64,000 nt of DNA, taken from positions 328,898 through 392,897 of the forward strand of contig NZ_HE997451.1 in the NCBI RefSeq assembly GCF_000312525.1. The letters are read 5' to 3'. This DNA comes from Bartonella florencae (GTDB lineage Bacteria > Pseudomonadota > Alphaproteobacteria > Rhizobiales > Rhizobiaceae). Positions 41,037 through 47,927 of this stretch are shown here, one piece after another. Both the position numbers and the translations under genes were made by a program. The stretch's first letter is position 1, and each line of letters begins with the position of its first letter. The notes beneath the pieces were generated by a model. It did no database searches and had not been told where the DNA came from. It saw only the letters and a program-made list of their open reading frames with translations.

Positions 41037-41819
41037 TTACAAACAAATTGTTATGACTGTAGCTGCAGCATTAAATTCAACTTTCTTATGAGCACGACGC
41101 ATTATTGCCTCTTCATCCACGCCCCATTGCTCTAACGTCCAATCTTCATCTAAATGGGCAATAGACCAAGCATGATCAGCATTGATTTTCCCTGCCATAA
41201 CAGCAAGCGCAATAAGAGCTGATCCTGTTAAAGTTGTCATTGTATGAAGTGCAGCAAGCATATAAGGAGACTCAACTTTACGGAGATAATTACTTACCGC
41301 TTGAAGTGCTTCGCGTGATTGTTCAACATGTATAAGTCCTTCTGTCAAATTAAACCGTGCACCAAGTTTTTCTTCTGCCCAATCCAATAAAGGATCCCAC
41401 TGTTCACATTGCCGCTGCACCAACTCTTTTGGTGTTTGTGCACGATACAAAATCATATCACAAGCAGCAAAACGCAATAAATCTTCAAAAACAACTTGCA
41501 TATCATCGGCAATGCCATCAATAACAGTATTAACAAGACGCGTCATCGGCATTTTTGCCGGATCAACAACATGCTTTTGACTCTCAAATTCCTGAGCAAC
41601 AAATTTAGCAAACACTTCCGTTGGCACAAGAAAATGACGCTTTGCGGGCGTTTTAACGGGACGTTCATCTAATAAGAGAGAAAATCCCCCCTCCTCACAA
41701 GCGATTTTCACTTCCCTATAAAACCGTTTTGGATGTAGTTGGCGTGAAAGATTTTGAGTCTTCTGAACAGAACTATTTTTATTCAAGGGCCTATCAAAAT
41801 GATTCAAAATTTCGCGCAT
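41037..41819 (-). CDS. ATP12 family chaperone
   Basis: 260-residue homologue of mitochondrial Atp12, which chaperones the alpha subunit of F1-ATPase during assembly. Diagnostic stretches are KRFYREVKIACEEGG, FSLLLDERPVKTPAKRH, DLLRFAACDMILYRAQ and the C-terminal AHLDEDWTLEQWGVDEEA. The ATG at 41819 follows GGTGGA. In related rhizobia I recall it close to an RluA-family pseudouridine synthase gene; here that gene lies 5 kb away, with the accessory cluster between. Confidence 0.92.
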   Translation of the reverse strand: MREILNHFDRPLNKNSSVQKTQNLSRQLHPKRFYREVKIACEEGGFSLLLDERPVKTPAKRHFLVPTEVFAKFVAQEFESQKHVVDPAKMPMTRLVNTVIDGIADDMQVVFEDLLRFAACDMILYRAQTPKELVQRQCEQWDPLLDWAEEKLGARFNLTEGLIHVEQSREALQAVSNYLRKVESPYMLAALHTMTTLTGSALIALAVMAGKINADHAWSIAHLDEDWTLEQWGVDEEAIMRRAHKKVEFNAAATVITICL

Positions 41820-42554
41820 ATTGTTCCACCTCTGATATTTTCAAAAAGTCGACTGTTTTTAAGATTCCATATATCTGATTAGGTTTGGAGCTACCTCCCT
41901 CCTCTCTCTAAAGAAGGGAAAATCTTACCAACACTAATCTGATTTTAAAATATATTTTATGTCTCTTTTACAAACAAAACAATGGCCTTGCCCTTCTATT
42001 CAGTAGCAACCGTTAGAACAAGTTTCAAAAAGAATTTATCTTGATTTAAAAGCCTAAACGCGTTGAATTTGCCAGTAAAAATGCATTCATCACCTTGCAA
42101 TTTATTCACTTATAAGAATGGTATCTACACTACAGCTTTTAAAATGCTTCTCACAGAACTTTAAAGCAGAAAAACGCACATCATTCAAAATATGGAGAAG
42201 TGTATTTTACTCACCAGCATACCTTTCAGCTGCAAAGACACCCCAATTATTCATCTCATATATTATTCTCCATACGCAAAGTTTTCCCTGCCTGATATCA
42301 TCACCCTAAAAAGAAGTCTTTGCTAAGATAATAAAATAACCATCATTACCTTTAAATAACTAATCTTAGAACTATTCTTTGCACAGTAGAAAAACTTACT
42401 CTTTAATTTTGGGTTATATTTTTATTAATTGTTTAATAATATTTTCGACAAGGCAGCATTAACTCATAAATTTGTATTAAAAATATAAATTAATTTACTA
42501 AATATGCTTAATATATTTTAATAATTTATTCGCATAATTAAAAAAATAGAGATC
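41820..42554. other. Spacer at the left edge of the accessory cluster
   Basis: 735 AT-rich bases. A 63-codon frame at 42118-42309 has no ribosome binding site and no recognisable content. The last 150 bases are extremely AT-rich and probably contain the promoter of the following operon; I see no inserted-element ends or direct repeats. Confidence 0.45.
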
Positions 42555-43113
42555 ATGCAATCTGAAAATAATACTTTTGTCTATACACTTGGCCCTGCAG
42601 ATACTAACTGTGCAGCAGCAGCACAATGGTGGCTTGATAATCACAATCAAAATATTTTGTCCACTGACCAAGATCCCGTATTACCTTATACGCAACTCTT
42701 GAAGAGGCATTCAATGAACTTTCTCAGAAAAAAGATGGATATCTCTTAAGTTGTGCTGCTTACCCTGATTTGCATACACTCATATTTACCCGTTTAGGTG
42801 ATATGCAAATTATTTGACAGCTTTATCATGCCTACTCACTCTATGGTTTTAGCGAAGCGCAACAACTCCGATGAAATTAAAACCGTAGCCACTCATCCTG
42901 CCCCTCAATCTCTGGTAGCTCATCAATATGACAAAGTATTTGCCAACAGCAATGCTGTTGCAGCCGTTCTTTGTAAGGCTGAAAAAGCAGATGCTTGTAT
43001 TACAACATCGTTTGCAGCAAACCGCATAAGCTAAATATTGTGGAAATTTTGGACAAGTGCCAATGGCATTTTTGCTCCAATCACTAAAGTCAGCTTATCA
43101 TGAAACAATCTGA
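42555..43113 (+). pseudogene. Frameshifted prephenate decarboxylase-like protein (BacA type)
   Basis: Three reading frames join into one protein of about 186 residues. Frame 0 from 42555 starts with VYTLGPADTNCAAAAQWW. The next frame from about 42686 reads LYATLEEAFNELSQ to LGDMQI, and stops at 42815. Frame 0 resumes with DSFIMPTHSMVLAKR, then HPAPQSLVAH, ANSNAVAAV and CITTSFAANRIS; a last shift after 43031 gives FGQVPMAFLL. The TLGPxxT opening, the HPxPxxL segment and the later ANS/TTSFAA segment match, from memory, the layout of BacA, which decarboxylates prephenate in bacilysin synthesis, and prephenate dehydratase domains generally. Length is also like BacA. Its end overlaps the next gene's ATG. 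Confidence 0.72.
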
Positions 43114-44138
43114 AGCGCTTCTTTCCATTGTTAACTTAGTTGACAAATTCCCTATGCGCCAAGAACTCGATGGAAGCATTAAGAAACCAATTGCAGCAGA
43201 TATTAATATAATCAATGAATTGATCACTCTGCTGAACCACCATGTAGATATTATTGACGGATTATCTCCAAAACTTTTAGCGACCATTTCTGATGATCTT
43301 CATCAGTGGATGCTCAACGATTTAACGATCCCTCCTCAATTTGATAACACTTTGGCTGCTTTCAAAGCGCCATTACCAGATGCTCCCTTGTTTTTCTTGG
43401 CCCCCATGCGTGCAACAAATGAACCTGATCCAGAAGGATTCCGGCTGGAATTAGTGACAGGATATCGTCATGAAACGACCTATCTTGCTGACGCCTCAAA
43501 ATATACAAAGAATTACGTATCATCTTTTCAGTGTATAAAAATGGGGATAGCATCAAAGGGTTTTTTAGAAGGCAATTGCATTGTTCTATTCCCAGAATCT
43601 GTAGCGACTGCTAAAAAAAATTGATAAGCAAGCATTTGCTTTGTTTTTTTTTCAGTAAATTCTTTGATATTTACAACAAGCAAACAATTGTGGAAGCTGA
43701 ACGTTTACTCGGTCGAGATAGTAAATTTCTGTTCGGTCAATTGTATAGTCGTAACTTATCTAAAGAAGGCATTTACAATGCTCGCTGTTTGTGGGGCTAT
43801 TATCATGACTATGCACATCATACTGGACCGCGGCCATTGGATAAAAATCTGTATATAAAATTAAATTGGTTCACAGGTCTTCTAGAAAAACTAAAGTTGA
43901 TTTAATTACAGTGCGTATTATGCTACAAAATCATCCAAAATTTTGGAAAGAAATAACTGAATTTATCCTATTAGAACGCATATTTCGTTATCCAAAAGGT
44001 TCTGATCAGCATATAACTTTTGATGCTGGTACAGGGATCTTGCTTTTTGAAATATTCATGCGGAACAACGCATTGATTGAAACGGATCAAGGTTATCTTC
44101 AATTTGATTTAGAGCGTCTTGAAAAAGTAATAACATGA
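43100..44138 (+). pseudogene. Frameshifted HDYxHH-motif protein, cluster partner
   Basis: Frames starting at 43100, about 43653 and about 43896 join into one protein of about 345 residues. The first break is an A8 tract (43613-43620) one base too long, the second a T9 tract (43644-43652) one base too long, and the third a one-base loss near 43895. The reconstructed protein has DAPLFFLAPMRATNEPDPEG and, later, LWGYYHDYAHHTGPRPLDK, whose HDYxHH looks like a metal site. It may belong to DUF6421, but I am unsure. It ends with an ATGA overlap to the next ORF. Confidence 0.65.
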
Positions 44139-44302
44139 TAGAGGATATAGAAGCGCTTGAAGCATTAGATGATGACGCTTATTTGGCAGGAGCTAAGGAT
44201 TATATCCAAAATAATCTTGGAAAACCACAGACCTCAAAGTCACGATTTAATTTTTCAACATCATCTTATGCACAGCGCGTTATTGGAGGGGTAAATCATT
44301 GA
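44135..44302 (+). CDS. Small 55-residue ORF coupled to both neighbours
   Basis: Starts in an ATGA overlap with the previous stop (44135-44138) and ends in a TTGA overlap with the exporter's TTG start (44299-44302). This tight coupling on both sides is the main support. The product is acidic at the N-terminus (IEDIEALEALDDDAYLAGAK) and polar and basic after that (KPQTSKSRFNFSTSS), with no membrane segment. It could instead be the C-terminal end of the preceding broken gene, displaced by one more frameshift. No family recognised. Confidence 0.45.
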   Translation: MIEDIEALEALDDDAYLAGAKDYIQNNLGKPQTSKSRFNFSTSSYAQRVIGGVNH

Positions 44303-45234
44303 ATTTCATAAAAGGACGATTATTCTTATTTACCTTTGCCATTCTAGCGTTATTTTCCATAAGTTGGTTACTATCTAAGAATTTGGTGAGCAATATACCA
44401 GTAATGCATGCAGTTGGACTGAGGTTGTGTGCAACTGCCGCCGCTTTATGGTTGATTGCAGTCTTTCGTGAGAAAGCTATTTTCAGATCCCTACCATTAC
44501 TTTCTATGATACCTTCTTTTTTAATTCTCTCAGTGTTAGGATTCTCGCTGTATTTTGTATGCAGCTTTGGTGCATTAAAATCGCTCAAAGCCAGTGATTT
44601 AACGATGGTGCTTGCTACTATTCCAGGTATTACCTACATATTGGGTGCACTGACGAATAGCCTTACGTTCTCATGGTTAAAACTTATCGGTATGATCATT
44701 GTCAGTGTAGCGGCTATAGCATTTAATATAAACGGTGCAGAGAGTGAATCTTACAGCCTAATAGGAATAGCTCTTGCTTTAACAGCAGCCCTTTCTTACT
44801 CTGCTTATGGCTTATTGTCTAAACGTTATCTTAAAAATTTACCTTTGCTCACCTCACTGGCTTGGATCACGACAATTTCTGCAGCATCGTTTATGCCATT
44901 ATTCATTTTTGATCCCACCCCACTCTTCTATCTTAAGTTAGAAGATATATTGAAGATATTGATTTTAGGAACTGTTTGCTCGGCACCCGTTTACGTATTA
45001 TATTAAAAAGTTTTAGCTGAGGGAGGCGTATTATATGCCAACACTATTGGCGTATTATCTCCTTTTGCAGTGGTTGCATGCGAATGGATCATCGGCTCGA
45101 GCTCTTCTCTCAACATGATCAAAATAATTACCATGATGATGGCTGTTATAGGGATGTCACTCTTATTTATAGATGCATCAAAGGTATCTAAATGGCAACA
45201 GAAACGCCATTCCCAAAATTCCAAATTATCATGA
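44299..45234 (+). pseudogene. EamA/DMT-family exporter with one in-frame stop
   Basis: Starts at TTG 44299 behind a strong GGAGGGG site. The frame encodes a multi-helix transporter of the EamA type (first helix LFLFTFAILALFSISWLLSK; FGALKSLKASDLTMVLATIP marks the first EamA repeat). A TAA at 45004-45006 cuts it after 235 residues, but the same frame continues for 75 more codons (KVLAEGGVLYANTIGVLSPF, then two more hydrophobic stretches) to TGA at 45232. The stop could arise from a TAT by one change. The intact form would have about 310 residues and ten helices; the truncated one lacks the last two or so. Confidence 0.8.
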
Positions 45235-45243
45235 GGAAATAAA

Positions 45244-46503
45244 ATGAAAAAACTCGCGTTAGTTTGCCAACGCAATGCAAAACTACCCTTTATATTTGAA
45301 GCAGCACAAGCCGCTAATATCGAATTAGTCATGATCTATGATACCGCTGAAAACGCTCCTATTCAGCTACCTGCAGCAGTCACTTCAACTTGGCAACTTC
45401 CTATTTCTGATAATCCAGAGGCAGCTCTAAACGCTTTTGCAGCAGGCGTAAAAGAACGCAATATTCGTGGGGTTATGACCCTGCGTGAAGAAGCTATTCT
45501 ATGGACCGCTTTGGCTGCCAAAAAAATCAATACTCCAAGTATTGAACCAGAAGTGGCAGCATTAACCCGAAATAAATATCTCATGCGTCAAGCTTTTGCT
45601 AAAGCAGGGCTTAGAACCCCAAGATTTCTTTATATAGATAATCCAGAAGACCTATCACAAGCGCATGCCTTAGACTATCCGCTCGTCATTAAACCCATCT
45701 CTGGATGGGCAAGTACAGGCGTAATGTTAGCTAAAAATTCCACCGAACTTCCTGATCTCATTAAAGCGGTATGGAATGTTCAGCATAAAGACATGGCACG
45801 TTTTAACGATGCAAATAAGCCTTTAGGTTTAATAATAGAACAGTATTTGCTAGGAAAAGAGTTTGTCATAGAATGTTTTGTTGATACAGCAGGTGTACAT
45901 GTTCTAGCAGTTGGCGACAAAGGACAACCGGAAGGACCATGGTTTGAAGAAACAATTTATCGTCAACGCTGTGATATAGATGATCCTCTAATTATTGCTT
46001 TATGTGAGGTTGCATGCTCTGGGGTAAAAGCTCTTGGTATAAATATGGGTGCTGCCCATGTAGAGCTACGCCTAGATGCCAATAACTTACCTTATATCAT
46101 TGAGATCGGTGCTCGTATCGGTGGATCGGGTGTCTCCCATTTTATTGTGGAGCAAGGTACAGGAATTTCATTTGCAAAACTCTGTATGAATGCCGCTTTA
46201 GCTGAACAAAACCCCGACCTTCCTGATATACTCCCAGCTAAAAAAGTGGCTGCAAATTACATTATTCCTCTTCGTGGTCATGGACGCTTTTCTGGATTTT
46301 CAGGTCTAGATAAGGTTGCACAACATCCTCAAACTACCAGAACTATAATTTTCTTTAAACCTGATCATATTTCACCACCTCCACCAGCATTTGGTGGATA
46401 TCCTAGTTTTATTTTCTCTGTTCATTCTTCAGATCAAGAAGCGCGCGATTACCATAAATGGCTTGATGATAACTTAAGCATCCTATGGAAATCTTATATT
46501 TAA
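45244..46503 (+). CDS. ATP-grasp ligase, candidate L-amino acid ligase (BacD-like)
   Basis: 419 residues, intact. ATP-grasp core: YPLVIKPISGWASTGVML (about residues 145-162, nucleotide-binding lysine and loop), IIEQYLLGKEFVIECFVD near 200, and the metal-binding AAHVELRLDANNLPYIIEIG followed by ARIGGSG near 275-300. An N-terminal pre-ATP-grasp fold and a C-terminal lid follow family custom. The nearest functional group I can argue for is the dipeptide ligases and carboxylate-amine ligases such as BacD; the substrate is unknown. A GAGGA site precedes the ATG, ten bases after the exporter stop. It is the only long gene of the cluster still open. Confidence 0.82.
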   Translation: MKKLALVCQRNAKLPFIFEAAQAANIELVMIYDTAENAPIQLPAAVTSTWQLPISDNPEAALNAFAAGVKERNIRGVMTLREEAILWTALAAKKINTPSIEPEVAALTRNKYLMRQAFAKAGLRTPRFLYIDNPEDLSQAHALDYPLVIKPISGWASTGVMLAKNSTELPDLIKAVWNVQHKDMARFNDANKPLGLIIEQYLLGKEFVIECFVDTAGVHVLAVGDKGQPEGPWFEETIYRQRCDIDDPLIIALCEVACSGVKALGINMGAAHVELRLDANNLPYIIEIGARIGGSGVSHFIVEQGTGISFAKLCMNAALAEQNPDLPDILPAKKVAANYIIPLRGHGRFSGFSGLDKVAQHPQTTRTIIFFKPDHISPPPPAFGGYPSFIFSVHSSDQEARDYHKWLDDNLSILWKSYI

Positions 46504-46943
46504 ATAACCCGATAGAAATATTTTCTATTCACTCTTAACTTTGATATAAAATCTCATTAAAATAAACAGAGCTACAATTTGATTTCCTAAAATTTTACAA
46601 AGGCTTTCCCTTTTAAAGGGCATATTTCAAACATCAACGATTGAGAGAACTTGATCTATTTTTATACCGCATTTGTAATAGAACCTCTTCAATATCTCTA
46701 GAATTCAAACAATAATGAGAATTTTATTCTGCTTTTTTAAGTATCATCAATATTTTTCCACCCCAAAGAATAAAAAAATGTAGAAAAAAGTTTTCAAATG
46801 ATATCCAAAAATTCATCATGGAAAAAATAAGACTTTTAAGAATAATGACTTATCAAGAGCTCCCTTAACAATAAGTGATATATAACACCTTATTACATCT
46901 ACAGAAAAAACACACAAAACAAAAAGAACAAAAGATAAAAAAC
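46504..46943. other. Spacer at the right edge of the accessory cluster
   Basis: 440 AT-rich bases between convergent genes. A small ATAGAAA/TTTCTAT stem near 46512-46530 could end the ATP-grasp transcript. No gene, tRNA or insertion-sequence end is visible. Confidence 0.45.
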
Positions 46944-47927
46944 TTATTCTGTGTCACCGTCATTCTCATTAAAAGCCAAAAGATTAAAACTTTGTACCAT
47001 ATGAGGAGGCAAAGGTGCAACGACATCCAAGATCCCTCCTGAAGGATGAGGAATACGAATCCGACGTGCATGAAGATGAAGACGATTTTGTATTCCCCCC
47101 GGTAATACCCAATTACTATCGGAAAAAAAATATTTTGCATCACCGATGATAGGATGATCCATATAAGCAGCATGGACACGTAGCTGGTGCGTTCTCCCCG
47201 TATAAGGTTCCATTTCAAGCCATGAAAGAGCTCTCCCTCGGGTATCTACAACCCGATAATAGGAAACAGCATGATAAGAGTCTGGCTCCCCATGGTCACA
47301 AACCCGCATTTTATCACCTTGTGCAGTCAACTCTTTAGCCATCCATGTTGAAATTTTATCTTGCTTTTTTTTAGGCACGCCGCGAACCAATGCCCAATAA
47401 GTCTTTTTTGTTTCGCGTGTTCTAAAAGCAGCTGTTAAAGCCTGTGCCGCCCCTCTTGACCGCGCAACAATGAGCACACCTGATGTCTCACGATCAAGAC
47501 GATGAACCAAACGCGGTTTTTCACCTTTTTTATTGCGCCAGGTCTCAAGCATACTATCAACGTGGCGCGTTAAGCCAGAACCACCTTGTACAGCAAGACC
47601 TGCTGGTTTGTTAAACACAAAAATCTTTGGATCTTCATAAAGCAGCATTTTTTTTAAAATGGTTCCATCATCCTGTCCCCGAATTGTTTTATCCGTGACC
47701 GAAAAGCTTTCCTTGTTATCAATAGGTAAAGGCGGCACACGCACAACTTGTCCTGTGAGAAGACGTGTATCAGCTTTAACACGCCCACCATCAATTCGTA
47801 TTTGTCCAGAACGCAATAATTTTTGTAAATGGCCAAATCCAACTCTTGGATAATGCACTTTAAACCAGCGATCTAAGCGCATTCCGTTCTCGTCTGTCTC
47901 AACCTTTTTTATTTCTACACCTGCCAT
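46944..47927 (-). CDS. rluC: RluA-family 23S rRNA pseudouridine synthase
   Basis: 327 residues. An N-terminal S4 RNA-binding domain (residues 15-75, RLDRWFKVHYPRVGFGHLQK) is followed by the RluA catalytic domain with the active-site Asp in LVHRLDRETSGVLIVAR near residue 140, then GRTHQLRVHAAYM near 225. The S4 domain and length favour RluC (positions 955/2504/2580 in E. coli numbering), though RluD cannot be excluded. The ATG at 47927 follows AGGGA. Confidence 0.88.
   Translation of the reverse strand: MAGVEIKKVETDENGMRLDRWFKVHYPRVGFGHLQKLLRSGQIRIDGGRVKADTRLLTGQVVRVPPLPIDNKESFSVTDKTIRGQDDGTILKKMLLYEDPKIFVFNKPAGLAVQGGSGLTRHVDSMLETWRNKKGEKPRLVHRLDRETSGVLIVARSRGAAQALTAAFRTRETKKTYWALVRGVPKKKQDKISTWMAKELTAQGDKMRVCDHGEPDSYHAVSYYRVVDTRGRALSWLEMEPYTGRTHQLRVHAAYMDHPIIGDAKYFFSDSNWVLPGGIQNRLHLHARRIRIPHPSGGILDVVAPLPPHMVQSFNLLAFNENDGDTE

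Follow-up and report, generated by a model that had tools for sequence, protein, structure and literature searches.

The stretch analysed here, hereafter the window, comprises 64,000 nucleotides of the Bartonella florencae genome (contig NZ_HE997451.1, positions 328,898 to 392,897, forward strand), and its segment 42555-46503 was found to carry four plus-strand genes, namely those for a BacA-like protein of the prephenate dehydratase (PDT) fold, an oxidase of the DUF6421 family, an EamA transporter and an ATP-grasp L-amino-acid ligase. The original prediction had placed five consecutive open reading frames (ORFs) here and had read them as a decaying bacilysin/anticapsin-like cluster; its coordinates hold, while two of its members, an HDYxHH protein and a 55-residue ORF, turned out to be pieces of one and the same DUF6421 gene. 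As argued below, the segment is probably a half-decayed copy of a horizontally shared operon, whose route would resemble that to bacilysin without being it. The genes are as follows:

42555..43110, plus strand: BacA-like gene of the PDT fold, a pseudogene, assigned by homology to the open 186-residue copy in Bartonella locus L045
43100..44302, plus strand: DUF6421 (PolE-type Fe/pterin oxidase family) pseudogene, with tblastn pieces spread over three frames
43804..43818, plus strand: HDxxH of the putative iron site, surviving in the broken DUF6421 gene, read from the sequence
44299..45234, plus strand: EamA/DMT-family transporter gene with one in-frame stop, ahead of which the frame scores 73 bits against PF00892
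45244..46503, plus strand: open gene for an ATP-grasp L-amino-acid ligase of the BL00235 type, 419 residues; PF13535 and PF18130; PDB 3VOT, E 3.2e-85

Comparison with an open 401-residue Bartonella copy (tblastn) identified the frames 43100-43624, 43621-43905, 43866-44138 and 44135-44302 as successive pieces of the DUF6421 gene, covering residues 1-185, 143-266, 263-345 and 347-400 respectively; a separate small gene at 44135-44302 (the 55-residue ORF) was rejected, as this frame represents the DUF6421 C-terminus. The BacA-like gene shows frame changes and internal stops, the EamA gene is a single frame interrupted by one TAA at 45004-45006 and the ligase gene is open, and the predicted state of three broken members beside an intact ligase frame was confirmed in this way. 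A sequencing error of one assembly was rejected as the cause, since at least one of the four genes is broken or missing in all 24 Bartonella genomes with ligase sequence. The operon-like spacing proposed earlier is borne out by relatives with open genes (e.g., loci L063 and L065), in which adjoining genes overlap by a few bases, an arrangement like that of a coupled operon, and since four Pseudomonas loci as well as further Bartonella show the identical gene order, it is more than chance. Scans for promoters and terminators gave nothing better than shuffled sequences did.

Scored against PF00800 (cut-off 25.2 bits), the largest fragment of the first gene from the window reached 16.9 bits, a shorter copy in L040 19.1 bits and the copies of Pseudomonas cichorii and Bacillus atrophaeus 22.3 and 24.2 bits, all of them under the cut-off; the open copy of L045 (31.1 bits) and that of L041 (30.7 bits, ending 20 residues early) lie above it. 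PDB sequence searches with PDT-like profiles revealed no real relative, and a fold search alone gave one: with the AlphaFold model of the Bartonella vinsonii copy (mean predicted local distance difference test score, pLDDT, 87.2) the best PDB matches were solved prephenate dehydratases (E 1.2e-10, template modelling score about 0.5), followed by periplasmic binding proteins and by GqqA, an acylase. When BacA served as query (a sequence matched at 98% identity in a Bacillus genome), the cluster copy was the sole match in six of six genomes with 31-50 bits, as compared to 20-24 bits for Bacillus frames of about 290 residues, which were taken to be PheA by their length. The TRF motif of PheA, which rests on three rows (L133, L134 and L136), is replaced by MxF in the cluster copies reaching that far (VPMxF in most) and by IPMSW in BacA. 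The first protein is thus of the PDT fold, as had been predicted, is nearer to BacA than to PheA and is devoid of the TRF motif; by analogy with BacA, it may decarboxylate prephenate without aromatisation. The cluster copies share 27-31% identity with BacA, and among 41 Bacillus genomes sampled BacA itself (64-98%) was found in 24, a copy of the 27-31% kind in eight (linkage to DUF6421 being known for two of these, G467 and G468, only) and both in none.

The second gene was characterized by way of its open relatives, as PF19985 (cut-off 25 bits) assigns 61.8 bits to the open 401-residue copy of L041 and 17.4 bits to the window fragment alone. In the PDB, a DUF6421 profile matched SnPolE and SmPolE (E 2.2e-22, for the SnPolE entry 9j2e, to 2.9e-20), whereby HDxxH and a distal Glu align with HExxH...E of 9j2e. 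Likewise, a model of the DUF6421 protein from Bartonella sp. MM73XJBT.G (pLDDT 89.6) matched these same PolE entries, titled Fe2+/pterin-dependent (best E 1.1e-15), after which dipeptidyl-peptidase III structures came. HDYxH and the Glu downstream of it do not vary among the 28 aligned proteins, and the Bartonella spacing HDxxH-x22-E agrees with the family motif HE/DxxHx(21-23)E given in the available part of PMC12614342, in which PolE is described as an Fe and pterin-dependent L-Ile desaturase. Judged by sequence, the DUF6421 protein of this set is a member of the PolE Fe/pterin oxidase family, and by analogy it may carry out an Fe/pterin-dependent amino-acid oxidation. PolE, from polyoxin biosynthesis, acts on L-Ile beside PolF, whereas the cluster DUF6421 is partnered by a BacA-like enzyme and a ligase. 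As a side observation, five Bartonella genomes keep an open gene of this pterin-dependent enzyme family though none of the 71 searched shows a pterin-4a-carbinolamine dehydratase.

It could be argued that the first protein is an ordinary prephenate dehydratase boosting phenylalanine, which DUF6421 would then hydroxylate in the manner of the aromatic amino-acid hydroxylases. The PDT fold would suit this, as would the cofactors of PolE, which are those of the aromatic amino-acid hydroxylases (PMC12614342, available part), and the precursor-supply role that has been suggested for TdaC (PMC7497051, available part). However, no cluster copy extending that far has the TRF motif of the three PheA rows, the protein is the nearer to BacA and the genome of the window encodes PheA separately; mainly on the first two grounds a plain dehydratase was disfavoured and is held to be quite unlikely. 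A Phaeobacter protein (L062:7926-8528) from the tropodithietic acid region, which we take from its neighbours to be probably TdaC, is 39% identical to the Bartonella protein and shares its short PDT-like subfamily with the DUF6421-linked proteins, a kinship that may be of use in tracing the role of TdaC; its cluster differs in holding a thioesterase and an acyl-CoA dehydrogenase.

For the fourth gene, the predicted ATP-grasp amino-acid ligase proved to be homologous to a known L-amino-acid ligase along its full length, the ATP-grasp core residues being kept: BL00235 of Bacillus licheniformis (3VOT) is its closest PDB relative (289.9 bits, E 3.2e-85), whereas BacD yields 36.9-38.6 bits and the NCBIfam BacD model 34.6 bits at a cut-off of 850. 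By this homology, it is predicted to form dipeptides from free L-amino acids. The cluster ligase of B. paralicheniformis aligns with BL00235 from end to end (913 bits), the window ligase hence being the more distant relative. At L103:5048-10318, from the B. licheniformis group, genes for EamA, a ligase almost identical to BL00235, a PDT-like protein, DUF6421 and a class I/II aminotransferase stand in a row. With such a near-identical relative in the same gene set, the crystallised ligase, so far an orphan, acquires a probable pathway.

In Bacillus, the bacilysin genes (bacABCDEF) provide a prephenate decarboxylase, an L-amino-acid ligase, an exporter and an aminotransferase. In the segment, too, a BacA-like enzyme goes together with an L-amino-acid ligase homologue and an exporter, as would be expected if a remnant of a true bacilysin/anticapsin cluster were present; most relatives of the Bartonella set also encode an aminotransferase. 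Against this, the oxidase is a PolE-type DUF6421 protein, the ligase is of the BL00235 type (290 bits) instead of the BacD type (37-39 bits) and the exporter is of the EamA family, to which BacE presumably does not belong. No counterpart of BacB, BacC or BacG is found among the four genes of the segment, the rest of the genome not having been searched for them. Considering also the low identity to BacA and the lack of any sampled Bacillus genome with both kinds of copy, a bacilysin remnant is very unlikely, and membership in the bacilysin cluster was rejected on the type of oxidase and ligase.

A scan of genome contigs with a DUF6421 alignment revealed 68 loci, eight of them in Bartonella and 60 in other genera. 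As the scan patterns derive from six DUF6421 sequences which all lie beside a PDT-like gene (three PDT-less plasmid records out of eight were left out), the presence of a PDT-like gene in 67 of the 68 loci, in 49 at a distance of at most 300 nucleotides from DUF6421, is biased to this subfamily and is no measure for DUF6421 as a whole; the sole locus without it is a rearranged B. tribocorum fragment. All four genes, with ligase and EamA of the Bartonella type, recur in 17 of the 60 non-Bartonella loci (six Bacillus, four Priestia, four Pseudomonas and one each of Marinobacter, Staphylococcus and Pantoea, the P. endophytica locus L128 having DUF6421 in two ORFs and so being possibly broken). 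The original prediction had named two findings that would speak against it, a first protein without the dehydratase/decarboxylase fold and genes never occurring together elsewhere; the fold was found and the set does recur. Aminotransferase genes are present in 46 of the 60 loci (class IV in 34, class I/II in 12) and in 12 of the 17 four-gene loci, some class IV matches (Pseudomonas, several actinobacteria) being only 25-30% identical to the query. A PF19985 search across the phylum gave one genome out of 398, whose DUF6421 gene has a gene of the PDT-like kind and one for a class IV aminotransferase next to it. The four-gene set also resides on plasmids, in Pantoea sp. SS70 and in Staphylococcus xylosus, and a Serpentinimonas plasmid has the PDT-like and DUF6421 genes with a LysE exporter.

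The four Pseudomonas loci share the gene order of Bartonella, DUF6421 is 66-67% identical between the two genera, and the trees of DUF6421 and of the ligase alike join both at 100% support, which points to a horizontal transfer of the whole unit between the Bartonella and Pseudomonas lineages. In the Pseudoalteromonas version the pair is accompanied by a fusion of 3-deoxy-D-arabino-heptulosonate 7-phosphate (DAHP) synthase and chorismate mutase, a luciferase-like oxidoreductase and further ATP-grasp genes; as this fusion would make prephenate, it supports a prephenate route. Genes resembling those of adenylation enzymes, recognized by sequence inspection and clustering, lie with the PDT-like/DUF6421 pair in Paenibacillus (L073:3333-12110) and Micromonospora (L121:7845-17000), hinting at larger peptide products there. 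In a literature search covering mainly freely accessible papers, this gene set was not found described.

The interpretation that we favour with moderate confidence builds on observed gene content, families, conserved metal-motif residues, folds, linkage and the patterns of decay and selection: the Bartonella segment would be a half-decayed version of an operon shared by horizontal transfer, which, by a bacilysin-like route not yielding bacilysin, leads from prephenate through the oxidation of an amino acid to a dipeptide that is exported, whereby prephenate as substrate, the oxidation, the dipeptide and its export are the inferred parts. In its complete form, as found in Pseudomonas, Bacillus, Priestia, Staphylococcus and Marinobacter, the operon would yield a small modified peptide. 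Initially, the BacA-like enzyme would convert prephenate, by decarboxylation without aromatisation, to a cyclohexadienyl keto acid, which the aminotransferase encoded nearby in most relatives would convert to the amino acid. Next, this amino acid would be oxidised (desaturation, hydroxylation or epoxidation) by the DUF6421 enzyme, acting as a PolE-type Fe(II)/pterin oxidase. The BL00235-type ligase may then join the oxidised amino acid to a second one, and EamA would export the product. In Bartonella the precursor half is broken or lost, and the ligase would be fed by available amino acids.

Several points weigh against this interpretation. PolE acts on L-Ile and not on a prephenate product (PMC12614342, available part), and for BL00235 the products listed in the available part of PMC6920838 are Met-Gly and Met-Met, not an aromatic-derived dipeptide. 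Its specificity residue P85 appears as Glu in the window ligase, as read off the alignment. The Phaeobacter relative, 39% identical and probably TdaC, comes without a known reaction, the role of TdaC being described as unsettled (PMC7497051, available part). Within the plasmid collection DUF6421 occurs in eight records, a PDT-like gene in 75 and both in five, so the pair is not universal; homologues of the fusion were found in no other locus among L055-L130 (the Pseudoalteromonas protein being the only query). In Bartonella itself, none of the eight loci of the DUF6421 scan has an aminotransferase gene of either kind, the lack of any pterin-4a-carbinolamine dehydratase hit in the 71 genomes leaves pterin recycling unexplained, and EamA is not open in ten of the 24 ligase-bearing genomes, that of the window among them.

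An alternative product would be an unusual amino acid of the branched-chain type, with the PDT-like protein not acting on prephenate at all. The desaturation of L-Ile by PolE (PMC12614342, available part) and the acceptance of Met by BL00235 (PMC6920838, available part) would agree with this, the nearby aminotransferases are often of class IV with one annotated as branched-chain, and proteins of the PDT fold may have other activities, as GqqA exemplifies. The nearness of the first protein to BacA and the chorismate mutase fusion of the Pseudoalteromonas version argue for prephenate instead, hence a branched-chain product is considered unlikely.

The fate of the set within Bartonella was followed in 71 genomes, of which 35 gave a ligase match at E 0.001 and 24 hold orthologous sequence (at least 79% identity), the remaining matches being 23-40% identical. 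In these 24 the ligase is open in 17, EamA in 14 (a 5'-truncated copy in G068 and a missing one in G027 counting as not open), DUF6421 in five and the BacA-like gene in three, a fourth copy (G064) lacking its first residues only. BacA-like gene and DUF6421 are both open in a single genome (G048), the pair being broken or deleted in the other 23, and all four genes are open in none. A gene counts as open here if one tblastn piece, free of stops, spans nearly all of the query, irrespective of the start codon; the ligase of G048 (stop two codons before the end) was counted as open and that of G019 (stop at codon 401) as broken, and for G053, G024 and G068, whose stretches are short, the first genes were judged from separate homology searches. 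Ten genomes share one common deletion junction by which the first gene and most of DUF6421 were removed; the ligase is open in seven of them and EamA in five.

From such counts (a broken ligase in seven of the 24 genomes, EamA not open in ten and no genome with all four genes open) it could be concluded that the whole set is dead in Bartonella, the open ligase being merely the last gene to break. The ratio of non-synonymous to synonymous substitution rates (dN/dS) speaks against this. Compared pairwise within the ten deletion genomes, its median is 0.19 for the ligase (45 pairs, range 0.12-0.26) and 0.22 for EamA (45 pairs), with 0.16 for ATP12 and 0.03 for glnA as neighbours (36 pairs each). 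Nine genomes without the deletion likewise gave 0.19 for the ligase (36 pairs), five of the 24 belonging to neither group. In nine deletion genomes (G011 was dropped, having no scorable remnant) the ligase value of 0.19 is opposed by 0.64 for the DUF6421 remnant (36 pairs each), while the same slice gave 0.26 (21 pairs) in seven genomes keeping most of the gene; the pooled ratio of non-synonymous to synonymous proportions (pN/pS) over four disjoint pairs is 0.22 for the ligase, 0.24 for EamA and 0.64 for the remnant. These values stem from non-independent pairs, a remnant of about 80 codons and alignments with broken copies included, and in the pair G017-G055 the remnant ratio is only 0.29; a ligase slice of like size gives 0.28. 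The lower dS of the remnant (0.16, as compared to 0.27) suggests a deletion younger than the divergence of the ligase, or one spread by recombination. A ligase freed at the time of the deletion should show a clearly raised ratio, yet it does not; as far as these ratios tell, the ligase is kept under purifying selection after loss of the amino-acid half, EamA less consistently so. Death of the entire set thus appears doubtful, though it is the least improbable of the alternatives weighed here.

The predicted decay therefore applies to the amino-acid half, which is broken or lost, but not to ligase and EamA, which remain under purifying selection in genomes devoid of that half. As the ligase stayed under selection while the precursor pair broke, it probably still works in Bartonella, joining available amino acids into a dipeptide; the gene set is half dead in this genus, with the surviving half probably doing something. 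A further-reaching proposal, to which we lean less than to its converse, is that the tandem of BacA-like enzyme and DUF6421 together with a BL00235-type ligase, whose native pathway this would be, makes a widespread, undescribed class of dipeptide-type products, and that in Bartonella the ligase, with or without the exporter, was retained for a second job. BL00235, treated as a biocatalyst in the available part of one review, would thereby gain a testable native setting, and the new Fe/pterin family DUF6421 now includes members from a recurring gene set in which a BacA-like protein is their partner. Moreover, a host-restricted genus would be seen to hold a biosynthetic operon without its precursor half, the ligase being kept under selection.

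The set lies at an apparent insertion site, the edges of which are formed by two flanking genes:

41037..41819, minus strand: ATP12 chaperone gene, left flank (PF07542)
46944..47927, minus strand: RluC-type pseudouridine synthase gene, right flank (PF00849)

This follows from the ATP12 neighbourhood (about 1.5 kilobases on each side) of 18 genomes chosen from the 47 without ligase, as in 14 of them the RluC-type gene adjoins ATP12. In 13 no cluster piece lies between the two (the gap corresponding to 41820-46943 of the window), and two of the 18 have an autotransporter gene beside ATP12 (L161 and L166) and two show neither. In loci L042 and L045 the cluster has the opposite orientation relative to the flanks. 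The fourteenth neighbourhood (L165 of genome G029) holds a DUF6421 relic of about 72 residues (L165:893-1109) between ATP12 and the RluC-type gene; its presence at the same site of a genome without ligase indicates that more members of the genus probably carried the set in the past.

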